Assembly: GCA_937870585.1 (NCBI GenBank)
Contig: CALMZE010000092.1
Coordinates: 1 to 55,499, forward strand
Direction: 5' to 3'
DNA from: an uncultured Sphingomonadales bacterium
GTDB lineage: Bacteria > Pseudomonadota > Alphaproteobacteria > Sphingomonadales > Sphingomonadaceae
Length of the DNA: 55,499 nt
A program made the translations under genes and the position numbers. Positions 4,211 to 8,813 of the stretch are shown one piece after another. Below the pieces are notes generated by a model. That model was given only the letters and a program-made list of their open reading frames with translations. It did no database searches and had not been told where the DNA came from. How positions within the stretch are numbered: position 1 is the stretch's first letter; the number at the start of each line of letters is the position of its first letter.

Positions 4211-5458
4211 ATGGCAGACGCCTATATCATCGACGCTGTGCGCACACCGCGCGGCATCGGCAAGCCCGGCAAGGGCGCGCTTTCGCACCTGCATCCGCAG
4301 CACCTCGCCGCCACCGTGCTGAAGGCGATCAAGGAACGCAACAATCTGGACACAGAGACGGTGGACGATATCGTCTGGTCCACCTCCACCCAGAAGGGCA
4401 AGCAGGGCGGCGATCTCGGCCGTATGGCGGCGCTCGCTGCGGGCTATGACGTGAAAGCGTCGGGCACCACGCTCGACCGTTTCTGCGGCGGCGGCATCTC
4501 TTCAGTCAACTTTGCCACGGCCTCGATCATGTCGGGCATGGAAGATTGCGTGATCGCAGGCGGCACCGAAATGATGAGCTACACCGCCACCGTGGGTGCG
4601 GAAGAAGCCAATGCCGGCATCAAGCCGCTGGGCATGGGCTCGGGCAACAAGGCGCTCGACGCGATCCACCCCCAGTCGCATCAGGGCGTGTGCGGTGACG
4701 CGATTGCCGCAATCGAAGGCATTGATCGCGCCGCGCTCGACGCGCTCGCACTTGAAAGCCAGCGCCGCGCAGACATTGCCATCAAGGAAGGCCGCTTCAA
4801 CAAGTCGGTCGTGCCGGTTCTCAACGAAGATGGCTCGGTCGCGCTCGATCATGAAGAATTCCCGCGTCCGGAAACGACCGCTGAAGGGCTCGCCAGCCTG
4901 AAGGCCTCGTTCGACGGCATTGCCGATTTCGATCTGGGCGGCTCCACCTTCCGCCAGCAGATCCTGCGCAAATATCCGGGTCTGGAATTCAAGGGCGTCC
5001 ACCATGCGGGCAACAGCTCGGGCGTGGTCGATGGCGCAGCGGCAATCCTGCTCGCCTCCAAGAATTATGTCGAAAAGAACGGCCTGAAGCCGCGCGGTCG
5101 CATCGTGGCCTATGCCAACCAGGGCGATTGCCCCACGCTGATGCTCAACGCGCCGGTTCCTGCCGCCAAGAAGGTGCTGGAAAAGGCCGGGCTGAAGAAG
5201 GAAGACATCGACGTTTGGGAAATCAACGAAGCCTTCGCGGTTGTCGCTGAAAAGTTCATGCGCGATCTCGATCTGGATCGCTCCAAGGTGAACCCGAACG
5301 GCGGCGCCTGCGCGCTGGGCCACCCGATCGGCGCGACCGGCTCGATGCTGATCGGCACCGCGCTTGACGAACTGGAACGCACTGGTGGCCGCTATGGCCT
5401 GATCACCATGTGCGCCGCTGGCGGCATGGCTCCGGCGATCATCATCGAACGCCTCTAA
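4211..5458 (+). CDS. acetyl-CoA acyltransferase (thiolase)
   Basis: A 415-aa thiolase that catalyses reversible CoA-dependent cleavage of 3-ketoacyl-CoA, in fatty acid breakdown or acetoacetyl-CoA metabolism. The nucleophile Cys92 is in LDRFCGGG; the second half carries INEAFAVV, the catalytic His motif GHPIGATG and the acid/base Cys motif CAAGGMAP. The loop after Cys92 reads GGG rather than the more common SSG, so it is not a textbook FadA/PhaA. The ATG is preceded by an AGAAGGA ribosome binding site and, 18 bp upstream, by a dyad that may be an operator. It stands alone between non-coding regions and is followed by a good terminator. The exact substrate is uncertain. Confidence 0.9.
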   Translation: MADAYIIDAVRTPRGIGKPGKGALSHLHPQHLAATVLKAIKERNNLDTETVDDIVWSTSTQKGKQGGDLGRMAALAAGYDVKASGTTLDRFCGGGISSVNFATASIMSGMEDCVIAGGTEMMSYTATVGAEEANAGIKPLGMGSGNKALDAIHPQSHQGVCGDAIAAIEGIDRAALDALALESQRRADIAIKEGRFNKSVVPVLNEDGSVALDHEEFPRPETTAEGLASLKASFDGIADFDLGGSTFRQQILRKYPGLEFKGVHHAGNSSGVVDGAAAILLASKNYVEKNGLKPRGRIVAYANQGDCPTLMLNAPVPAAKKVLEKAGLKKEDIDVWEINEAFAVVAEKFMRDLDLDRSKVNPNGGACALGHPIGATGSMLIGTALDELERTGGRYGLITMCAAGGMAPAIIIERL

Positions 5459-5482
5459 GCGCTTCGCTGACGACTTAAAAAG

Positions 5483-5514
5483 GGGCATTCCGGGAAACCG
5501 GAGTGCCCTTTTTT
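5483..5514 (+). terminator. rho-independent terminator after the thiolase gene
   Basis: GGGCATTCCGG (5483-5493), loop GAAA, CCGGAGTGCCC (5498-5508), then six T. The 11-bp stem has one G-T pair and a GNRA-like tetraloop. Confidence 0.9.
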
Positions 5515-5578
5515 CATGCGCGCGGTTGCGTTCGCCAACGCCTGCTTCACTATGCGGCAAAATCAAGAGGAGCCCCGC

Positions 5579-6493
5579 ATGACCGATCTGCTGCTGCATC
5601 ATTATGACAATTCCCCTTTTTCCGAAAAGGTGCGCGTTTGCCTGGGGATCAAGGGTTTGAGCTGGGGTGCTGTCGATCAACCCGTGATCATGCCCAAGCC
5701 CGATCTGCTGCCGCTGACCGGCGGCTATCGCAAAATTCCGGTGATGCAGATCGGTGCGGACATTTATTGCGACAGCGTGCTGATCGTGCGCGAGCTGGAG
5801 CGCCGCTTTCCCGAACCCACATTGTTCCCGGATGGCAATCGCGGCCTTGCGGCGGCCCTCGCGCTCTGGACTGACCGTTCCATGTTTCAGGCAGCGGTTG
5901 CGGTGATCTTCGGCAATCTGGGCGAGCATGTTGCGCCCGAATTCATCAAGGACCGCGAAGCGCTGAGCGGCGCGCCCTTCGATCTCGCCAAAATGAAAAT
6001 GGCCATCCCGCACATGACAGACCAGTTGCGTGCGCATGGTGCGCTGATCGACGAGCAGCTGGCCGATGGCCGCACCTTCCTGACCGGGGAGACGCCCGGG
6101 CTCGCTGATGCCAACGTCTGGTACAATCTCTGGTTCATCGAAAACGCCTTCCCGCCCGCCGCGCCAATTCTGACCGATTATCCCCGCATCGCCGCCTGGT
6201 CAGAGCGCGTGCGCGGCATCGGCCATGGGACGCGTTCGGAGGTGACGCCTGCCGCCGCGCTGGAGCAGGCCAAGACTGCGACCCCAGCCCGCGGCAGCGT
6301 CTCCCCCGAACATGCCGATCTGGCCGGGAAGCCCGTCACGGTGTTTGCCGATGATTATGGCCGCGATCCGGTCAGCGGCACACTCTGGAGTTCCTCCGCC
6401 TTCCACTATGGCGTCGCGCGCACGGACCCGGCGCTGGGCGACATTGTGGTGCATGTACCGCGCATCGGCTTTGGGTTGCAGGCGGGAGCCTAA
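5579..6493 (+). CDS. glutathione S-transferase family protein
   Basis: A 304-aa protein with an N-terminal thioredoxin-like GST domain: LLHHYDNSPFSEKVRVCLG is the glutathione-site helix region with Ser13 likely at the active site, and YRKIPVMQIG carries the cis-proline. An all-helical GST C-domain follows (FLTGETPGLADANVWYNLWF). About 90 extra C-terminal residues (from roughly 215) are beta-like and not part of a standard GST, so the protein is longer than the usual 200-230 aa. Substrate is unknown. The ATG at 5579 follows an AAGAGGAG ribosome binding site; the upstream in-frame start at 5516 lies inside the terminator tail and is rejected. Confidence 0.85.
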   Translation: MTDLLLHHYDNSPFSEKVRVCLGIKGLSWGAVDQPVIMPKPDLLPLTGGYRKIPVMQIGADIYCDSVLIVRELERRFPEPTLFPDGNRGLAAALALWTDRSMFQAAVAVIFGNLGEHVAPEFIKDREALSGAPFDLAKMKMAIPHMTDQLRAHGALIDEQLADGRTFLTGETPGLADANVWYNLWFIENAFPPAAPILTDYPRIAAWSERVRGIGHGTRSEVTPAAALEQAKTATPARGSVSPEHADLAGKPVTVFADDYGRDPVSGTLWSSSAFHYGVARTDPALGDIVVHVPRIGFGLQAGA

Positions 6494-6571: not shown

Positions 6572-6592
6572 ATGCAAGACAGGATGAACGCC

Positions 6593-6790
6593 ATGAGCAA
6601 AACACCCGAACAGCCCGCAATCGAACTCAATGCAGACGAACTTGATCTCGCCGTGGGTGGCACGGTGAGCGTTGGCTCGGCCAGCGCGGCCCGGTCTGAA
6701 GTGATGCAGAAGGGTGGCTCTCCGGGCGTGCGCGAGGAAGACAAGAAATCCATTCTCGCCCCCGGCGCGACGGTCAGCCAGCCGTCCTGA
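6593..6790 (+). CDS. small peptide with double-glycine-type leader, candidate RiPP precursor
   Basis: A 65-aa peptide. Residues 1-23 look like a class of RiPP/bacteriocin leaders: a short polar start, then IELNADELDLAVGG, the L-x-x-x-E-L-x-x-x-x-G-G pattern recognised by leader-binding enzymes and double-glycine peptidases. The predicted core, residues 24-65, has no Cys and no aromatic residues, is rich in Ser, Thr, Ala, Gly and Val, and holds a charged stretch (GVREEDKKS) with both acidic and Lys/Ser/Thr side chains, as needed for ester or amide cross-links by ATP-grasp ligases. The start at 6593 is chosen for an AGGA 6 bp upstream; ATGs at 6572 and 6584 are also in frame. It ends 16 bp before the ATP-grasp gene, so the two almost certainly form an operon. 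The function as a precursor is inference. Confidence 0.6.
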   Translation: MSKTPEQPAIELNADELDLAVGGTVSVGSASAARSEVMQKGGSPGVREEDKKSILAPGATVSQPS

Positions 6791-6806
6791 TCCAGCAGTC
6801 GACCGG

Positions 6807-7607
6807 ATGCAGTTTGCGCTCGTCTCCCGGCTTGAGCTTGATCATCTGAACAGCCTGTTTGAGGCGGCCTGTGCGGCGCGCGCCATTCCTTTTGCGATGA
6901 TATGCGCCGGGCAAGCCGCCCTCGCCCCGCTGGCCCCGGCTTCGGCGGGCCGCATGCTCTATTGCGCAGCGGCAGACCGGGCTTCGGTCCTGCTCGAAAA
7001 ACTGCTCTTTACAGATGGAACAGCGGCGCTCCACGATCCGCATTTCATCTGCGATCATCCCGAAATCCTCTTCCGCCAGCGCGGCCTGCCCACACCCCGC
7101 ACCGTTTTTGCGCCTGCGCCGGATGATGCGGGGCTGCTTCGTCAGGTCGAATGGCTTGGGGGGTGGCCGGTTGTCGTCAAACAACCGGGACTGGAGGGCG
7201 GGCGCGGTGTGGCGCTGGCGCACACGCTGACCGCGCTGAAAAGCATCCCACCGGGCGCGCTCATCCAGGCCTTCATACCGCATCAGCGAAGCTGGCGCGT
7301 CACAGTACTGGGCGATCAGGCCCTGGCCAGCACCGCAATGCGCCCGCCCACCGGAGATTTCCGCGCCAACGCGCCCGGTTTCTCGATTGATGCGGCGGCT
7401 GCGGTGCCCGCCGGGCTGGAGGCTTTGGCCATTTCCGCCGTTGCCGCACTGCGGCTGGACTTTGGCGGCGTGGACATCATCGAGCGCGAAGACGGCGCGC
7501 TTGCACTGTGCGAAGTCAATTTTCCCTGCGCTTTTGATTTTCAGCAGCAGGCCAATGGTGTCGATATCGCCGGAGCGATTGTTGAATATCTCGCAAGAAA
7601 GCTCTGA
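6807..7607 (+). CDS. RimK-like ATP-grasp ligase, candidate RiPP-modifying enzyme
   Basis: A 266-aa ATP-grasp protein of the RimK type. Visible motifs: WPVVVKQPGLEGGRGVALA (nucleotide-binding Lys and glycine-rich loop), GALIQAFIP, then DFRAN, LDFGGVDIIE and CEVNFPC (Mg/ATP ligands), and ANGVDIAGAIVEYL, which matches the end of RimK proteins. The family joins a carboxylate to an amine or hydroxyl at the cost of ATP: RimK adds Glu to ribosomal protein S6, and relatives cyclise graspetide precursors. The N-terminal domain is short and divergent. It starts 16 bp after the small peptide with a double-glycine leader, which makes that peptide the likely substrate. No transporter or protease gene follows. 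An upstream in-frame start at 6714 would overlap the peptide gene and has no conserved content. Confidence 0.8.
   Translation: MQFALVSRLELDHLNSLFEAACAARAIPFAMICAGQAALAPLAPASAGRMLYCAAADRASVLLEKLLFTDGTAALHDPHFICDHPEILFRQRGLPTPRTVFAPAPDDAGLLRQVEWLGGWPVVVKQPGLEGGRGVALAHTLTALKSIPPGALIQAFIPHQRSWRVTVLGDQALASTAMRPPTGDFRANAPGFSIDAAAAVPAGLEALAISAVAALRLDFGGVDIIEREDGALALCEVNFPCAFDFQQQANGVDIAGAIVEYLARKL

Positions 7608-7627: not shown

Positions 7628-8813
<1,186 letters not shown>

Follow-up and report, generated by a model that had tools for sequence, protein, structure and literature searches.

The window, the whole 55,499-nucleotide stretch of DNA from an uncultured Sphingomonadales bacterium that was analyzed here, probably carries a two-gene RiPP cassette made up of a precursor peptide and an ATP-grasp maturase, with export of the product in trans. 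The peptide gene lies beside a ligase gene in a genome that also has an exporter, which indicates that the pair is probably a factory for a modified peptide, and its position leads us to infer that this peptide is the substrate of the ligase. A first-pass annotation of the window had proposed a new RiPP system. The minimal cassette of leader peptide and ATP-grasp enzyme in this proposal is strengthened by the NHLP exporter of the same genome and by the similar leaders that lie beside that exporter in relatives, whereas the novelty of the pairing does not hold.

The peptide gene and its double-glycine leader

The gene layout was borne out as first annotated, with a 65-aa peptide at 6593-6790 and a 266-aa ligase at 6807-7607, both on the forward strand and separated by 16 bp (Table 1). 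The stop codon of the peptide gene is at 6788-6790, and an AGGA 8 nt ahead of its ATG is the likely ribosome-binding site. No clear AGGA-type site precedes the ATG of the ligase gene, and a promoter and terminator scan found no promoter-like site on the forward strand ahead of the peptide. The upstream neighbor is a glutathione-S-transferase-like gene with its stop at 6493, and a convergent DNA-methyltransferase-like gene (7677-8795, named by eye) lies downstream.

Table 1. Positions of the features discussed, in the window or in loci (L numbers) of the same or related genomes
Feature	Position	Strand	Basis or remark
AGGA, likely ribosome-binding site of the peptide gene	6581..6584	+	sequence
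Precursor-like peptide, 65 aa plus stop	6593..6790	+	sequence, codon score, leader pattern
Double-glycine leader MSKTPEQPAIELNADELDLAVGG	6593..6661	+	alignment with 25 NHLP-locus leaders; leader model
Putative core, 42 aa	6662..6787	+	nucleophiles 8 S, 2 T, 3 K; carboxylates 3 E, 1 D
RimK-like ATP-grasp ligase, 266 aa, shortened N-terminal domain	6807..7607	+	profile, structure-database, and alignment searches
ATP-grasp domain, residues 89-262	7071..7592	+	Pfam PF08443, E 2.5e-17
Lys125	7179..7181	+	invariant in alignment with RimK-type proteins
E236-V-N238, E-x-N motif	7512..7520	+	alignment; RimK's following SSPGLEG absent
Leader-peptide array (10)	L103:13749-16077		beside NHLP exporter
Leader-peptide array (11)	L104:3009-5490		beside NHLP exporter
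Leader-peptide array (6)	L105:14065-15944		beside NHLP exporter, G446
Leader-like peptide, then methyltransferase gene (MethyTransf_Reg domain)	L105:4027-5647		far end of G446 exporter locus
Lone leader peptide, then radical SAM/SPASM gene	L130:5130-6520		G446; 35-bp gap
Lone leader peptide, 46 aa (58-aa frame), contig C146	L132:4764-4904		own genome; leader model E 0.003
Lone leader peptide, 65 aa, contig C7	L133:4838-5035		own genome; leader model E 0.08

The peptide frame has a codon score of 0.343 bits/codon, compared with a reference median of 0.366 bits/codon for 201 true-frame 65-codon pieces from 35 window ORFs, which were chosen by length and include at least one (4502-6037) that looks antisense, and none of the 402 off-frame pieces outscored it. 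On the basis of codon use and the rarity of its leader pattern, the 65-aa peptide is judged to be a real coding frame. The alternative that the small ORF is untranslated, which would fit the lack of any relative found for the whole peptide, is very unlikely in view of a codon score within the range of the reference ORFs, the ribosome-binding site, and the rare leader pattern.

Double-glycine leaders follow the pattern L-12, E-8, L-7, G-2, and G-1. The window leader has Leu at -12 and -7, Glu at -8, and Gly at -2 and -1, with Ala at -4. When a strict pattern, L-x3-[EDQ][LM]-x2-[VILMA]-x-GG, was searched in ORFs of 35-130 aa, it gave 5 matches in 100 block-shuffled windows (76,238 ORFs), or 0.05 expected per window, an expectation that disregards adjacency to an ATP-grasp gene. 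Outside the chosen NHLP loci, the same pattern gave eight matches among 6,321 small ORFs from 165 sequences (719 kb, a set that takes in the window and overlapping loci), seven of which fall on overlapping copies of the window peptide and the other on another peptide of its genome (L132). Over an alignment of 25 columns, 25 leaders of the NHLP exporter loci are 30-45% identical to the window leader, and a leader model built without it placed the window peptide at the top of 588 window ORFs with a modest score (E 0.044). The double-glycine leader of NHLP/NHLM-exported peptides is thus present.

The leader is followed by the core TVSVGSASAARSEVMQKGGSPGVREEDKKSILAPGATVSQPS, which contains no C, F, W, Y, or H, in agreement with the earlier description of a core free of Cys and aromatics. 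Inspection by eye likewise found no usual graspetide acceptor pattern in the core, as had been noted, though suitable residues occur. The whole peptide matched no Pfam family, and its one NCBIfam match, to CTB bacteriocin, covers residues 1-29 only and scores 13.9 bits against a cut-off of 32. A search at E up to 10 gave matches in 74 of 149 family genomes, the best beyond the peptide's own copy (E 0.004) lying inside a 342-aa frame, and no convincing relative was found in the 148 other family genomes. Three of the four weak matches in the window's own genome (C41, C137, and C136) are not leader peptides on reading, and the fourth is on C73 with an E value of 9.84. A defence library gave no match.

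The ATP-grasp ligase and its relatives

The ligase matched Pfam RimK (PF08443) at 63.5 bits, over the cut-off of 21. Its top NCBIfam family was rimK_fam (TIGR00768), at 74.3 bits and under the cut-off of 143.4, and it also scored below the cut-offs of NF007764 (60.2 bits, cut-off 331), TIGR02144 of the LysX/ArgX type (58.2 bits, cut-off 275.6), GRASP_SAV_5884 (TIGR04187; 37.6 bits, cut-off 350), MvdD (TIGR04184; 20.7 bits, cut-off 475), and MvdC (TIGR04185; 17 bits, cut-off 425). The best sequence match in the PDB, RimK 5zct (E 3.9e-17), was confined to residues 87-264. K125, R164, D223, E236, and N238 are invariant when the ligase is aligned to one closer relative and 26 RimK-type proteins, which confirms that the ATP and Mg motifs are intact as first annotated. 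Lys125 presumably corresponds to the ATP-binding lysine position of RimK, and E236-V-N238 is taken here to be the Mg-binding E-x-N motif. Compared with the 26 RimK-type proteins, the RimK stretches PRIGAS, FRSNLHRGG, and EVNSSPGLEG are replaced in the ligase.

A structure model of the ligase from 28 sequences had a mean pLDDT of 64.5 and was unreliable at residues 36-95, so the fold search was used for the ATP-grasp part only; a model from two sequences (mean pLDDT 37.5) was unusable. RimK ranked first among the best 50 fold matches, with ArgX, PsnB, and D-Ala ligases first appearing at ranks 4, 13, and 28, respectively, and MdnC at 48; LysX was also among them. Because the ATP and Mg residues are kept, the RimK stretches are lost, and RimK leads the fold matches, the protein is predicted to be an ATP-grasp carboxylate ligase that is near RimK in fold and is no RimK orthologue.

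This relationship bears on two alternatives for the function of the pair. The ligase may extend the C-terminus of the peptide by at least one amino acid, as RimK does on ribosomal protein S6, and RimK is indeed the nearest family by profile (TIGR00768 compared with GRASP_SAV_5884, MvdD, and MvdC) and provides the nearest solved structures by both sequence and fold. This alternative is nevertheless unlikely: the replaced stretches are near-invariant in RimK, so that glutamate binding is unlikely to be conserved, and the C-terminus of the peptide, SQPS, is unlike the acidic C-terminal tail of ribosomal protein S6. An amino-group carrier pair of the LysW/LysX or ArgX type, in which the peptide would bear the growing amino acid, agrees with the presence of ArgX and LysX among the fold matches and with the TIGR02144 score, but that score is far below the family cut-off. 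LysW has zinc-binding Cys and a Glu-rich acidic C-terminus, whereas the window peptide, which carries an export leader, lacks a Cys to bind zinc as well as a Glu-rich tail, and the pair does not qualify as LysX/ArgX with a LysW carrier. This is the least probable of the alternatives and very unlikely.

Full-length relatives of the ligase are rare in the genomes searched. The ligase had matches in 44 of 149 family genomes at E 1e-10, and only in the window's own genome and in Sandarakinorhabdus cyanobacteriorum TH057 (G020; Sphingomonadales in the NCBI taxonomy) did the match reach ahead of residue 88, the latter at 31% identity over query residues 20-263. At 1e-13, a threshold too strict to catch this relative, 25 of 396 order genomes matched, the window's own genome alone ahead of residue 86. 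A two-sequence alignment of the window ligase and the S. cyanobacteriorum relative was used as a further query and matched 155 of 397 family genomes at 1e-22; among the matches listed, only those of the two query genomes were full length, and the others began at a column of at least 103. A scan of genome contigs found no relative with the ligase sequence (P0002) as the query and, with the two-sequence alignment, one match, the S. cyanobacteriorum protein already in that alignment. The plasmid search with the ligase gave 43 records, all below 60% identity, and the best 20 of the 43, most of them annotated rimK, align over 64-73% of the query. One candidate relative of the pair, H11 (L034), was rejected as a longer, 472-aa RimK-domain protein. 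By eye, the other two RimK-domain matches of the window's own genome resemble glutathione synthetase (C188) and carbamoyl-phosphate synthase (C111).

The S. cyanobacteriorum relative (loci L012/L183 and L076) lies on a short contig of 4,844 bases. The row at L076:80-3448 comprises genes for a GNAT-like protein (a call below the cut-off), for the short ATP-grasp relative, for two unknown proteins, and for a class A beta-lactamase-like protein (50.8 bits, cut-off 200), and the contig continues with an EamA-like transporter gene (named by eye). No leader peptide was seen on this contig, and none was found in the genome with a leader model. The peptide-ligase pair was not seen in any relative, with 148 other family genomes covered for the peptide and the full-length ligase occurring in S. 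cyanobacteriorum only.

Within the genus, the ligase matched 1 of 13 genomes at E 0.001, the window's own. The 12 other genomes have no match at this threshold, while 44 of 149 family genomes have matches that are mostly RimK-like, suggesting that RimK may have been lost in this genus. Seven genus members have no peptide, ligase, or glutathione-S-transferase match in the 5.6 to 6.6 kb beside the methyltransferase gene, which places the cassette at a synteny break.

The NHLP exporter and other leader peptides

The only C39 peptidase match of the window's genome at a threshold of E 0.001 is on contig C133, in a row of genes with the NCBIfam names NHLP/NHLM that encode an HlyD subunit (282.6 bits, cut-off 156.2), the peptidase/permease ABC1 (900.1 bits, cut-off 853.3), and ABC2 (663.3 bits, just under the cut-off of 709.4). 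The genome therefore has the C39 peptidase-containing exporter of NHLP/NHLM systems. The precursor and the exporter are on different contigs, and no leader peptide was seen in the 19-kb exporter stretch of C133. Window and exporter contig have a tetranucleotide correlation (r) of 0.975, compared with 0.939-0.976 for contigs of the same genome and 0.756-0.914 for loci of eight other genomes, and a GC content of 0.625 in both; this matching composition speaks against contamination. In the genus, ABC1 is over the cut-off in 1 of 13 genomes, the same one that has the ligase, so that the co-occurrence rests on one genome, and six other members have lower-scoring ABC1 relatives (457.6-463.8 bits). 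In the family, 5 of 397 genomes have an exporter match at 1e-200, four of them over the cut-off. S. cyanobacteriorum, which may or may not be within the 397 genomes searched, is absent from these five.

Three same-family genomes contain arrays of leader peptides on the exporter side, with 10 peptides in G439, 11 in G576, and 6 in G446. Their leaders include MTDKKTEELNEAELDQVAGG, and similar leaders have the form ELNExELDQVTGG. The cores within these arrays are very different, with some C-terminal tails in common (GMERVFEDE and VASGGGNGI), and in L104 a PAD_porph-like protein (16.7 bits, cut-off 25) lies in between. Some cores resemble pieces of unrelated families at scores above the Pfam cut-offs, one (L126:5032-5202) matching DUF1559 over its first 25 positions (E 1.1e-7) and another (L104:4420-4644) the end of eCIS_core (E 9.5e-5), and further leader peptides end in what we take to be a motif recalling Hcp. 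The cores may mimic short stretches of bigger proteins.

A model of 26 leaders, the window leader included, had matches at E up to 1 in 14 of 18 genomes. The 12 matches in G439, 15 in G446, and 13 in G576 consist mostly of array members, of which many went into the model, and six matches far from the arrays and outside the model (five in G446 and one in G576) have E values of 5.8e-9 to 0.002. The window's own genome has five matches, comprising the window peptide, which is part of the model, two lone leader peptides on C146 and C7 (Table 1), and two weaker matches in frames of 154 and 189 aa. Among the 12 other genus members, nine have one match each, at columns 12-21 and in frames of 332 to 966 aa, which are not small peptides, and three have none. 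In G027, an exporter genome, the only two matches are weak and in longer frames, and its exporter locus (L106) has a leader-like stretch opening a long frame. Short leader peptides were therefore found by this search in four of the five exporter genomes, a count in which the window's own genome has its place partly by construction (its leader is in the model), and in none of the 13 others.

One lone peptide of G446 (L130; leader-model E 0.0017) is followed by a radical SAM/SPASM gene, forming a candidate RiPP pair. A second combination, with a methyltransferase gene directly after the peptide, lies in the exporter locus of the same genome (L105), where the peptide fits a looser pattern only and is not lone. 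By analogy, these two pairs appear to repeat the window's arrangement with enzymes of other classes. The radical SAM case aside, no obvious maturase was recognized by eye next to the lone peptides of G446 and G576.

These lone peptides and arrays also bear on the alternative that peptide and ligase are coincidental neighbors, the peptide being an unmodified, NHLP-exported product (microcin- or signal-like) and the ligase having another role, such as joining an amino acid to a small molecule or another protein. Beside the C146 and C7 peptides, no evident RiPP enzyme was recognized by eye among the neighbors, indicating that NHLP-exported peptides may need no maturase here; the arrays of 6 to 11 peptides have no ligase match in the stretches read (L103-L105); and the only full-length relative of the ligase lies in another gene setting. 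The codirectional spacing of 16 bp and the occurrence of ligase and exporter in the same single genome of the genus argue against coincidence, which is a possible reading but clearly the less probable one.

Proposed route and comparison with known systems

In the favored two-gene cassette, the leader peptide would be synthesized first, and the adjoining ATP-grasp ligase would phosphorylate, and thereby activate, a carboxylate of the core, which would then be joined to a side-chain nucleophile or an added amine. The C39 domain of the NHLP exporter encoded on C133 would cleave after GG, and the product would be exported in trans; both this export and the type of bond are what we infer from the gene content. 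For bond formation, the core has 10 Ser/Thr and 3 Lys as well as 4 Asp/Glu, and its C-terminus is free. If the cassette is real, a side-chain cross-link in the form of a graspetide-like ester or amide ranks first, with about an even chance; the RimK-like addition of an amino acid or amine to the C-terminus ranks second and is considerably less likely; and other chemistry ranks third.

More speculatively, the ligase might represent a compact ATP-grasp subfamily, apart from RimK and the known graspetide synthetases, that matures lone peptides with NHLP leaders scattered over genomes of the family. Each peptide would have its own maturase (ATP-grasp here; in a relative, radical SAM and perhaps a methyltransferase), a single exporter would serve them all in trans, and the bond could be one unseen so far; this broader reading is doubtful. 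The cassette, if real, would provide chemistry with a small peptide ligase of 266 aa and would show that different maturases in scattered cassettes share one exporter. Cluster searches would then also overlook RiPP cassettes in this group, since the precursor and maturase genes are distant from those of the exporter and the ligase resembles the housekeeping RimK.

A literature search, with most subscription papers outside its range, found no publication title on this system. The statement in the first-pass annotation that no described family has this pairing was, however, too strong. In the parts of the sources that were available, GG motifs and C39 transporters are described in ATP-grasp loci (PMC8939145), C39/NHLM transporters are common in graspetide loci (PMC8939145 and PMC13097080), and NHLM transporters co-occur with eight graspetide groups, 2, 8, 14, 16, 18, 20, 21, and 23 (PMC13097080). 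On this partial view of the literature, the pairing of a GG-leader precursor with an ATP-grasp enzyme is as such already known from graspetides.

Compared with RimK, the ribosomal protein S6 glutamate ligase, the window ligase shares the ATP-grasp domain, at about 30-35% identity from residue 86-90 on, and the catalytic Lys, Arg, Asp, Glu, and Asn. It differs in its length (266 aa versus about 300 aa), in the residues before about 86, which are unaligned by sequence search, and in the absence of the RimK substrate signatures; the Pfam domain is over its cut-off, and the RimK family cut-off is not reached. The S. cyanobacteriorum ATP-grasp protein has a similarly short N-terminal domain and is alike over its full length, but it has other gene neighbors. 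With the NHLP/NHLM export systems, the window shares the double-glycine leader and the exporter genes of its genome, whereas the leader is short and matched no nitrile-hydratase-like or Nif11 model. The layout resembles that of the graspetides (microviridin, plesiocin, and others), in which a small GG-leader precursor adjoins an ATP-grasp enzyme: a ligase with intact ATP and Mg residues and a leader precursor encoded beside it are both found here, and PsnB and MdnC are among the fold matches. The differences from graspetides are that the ligase is small and scores far under the MvdC, MvdD, and GRASP_SAV_5884 cut-offs, that the core has no usual acceptor pattern, and that the exporter is encoded outside the cluster. 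The cassette is probably a rare variant of a known peptide-modifying system.
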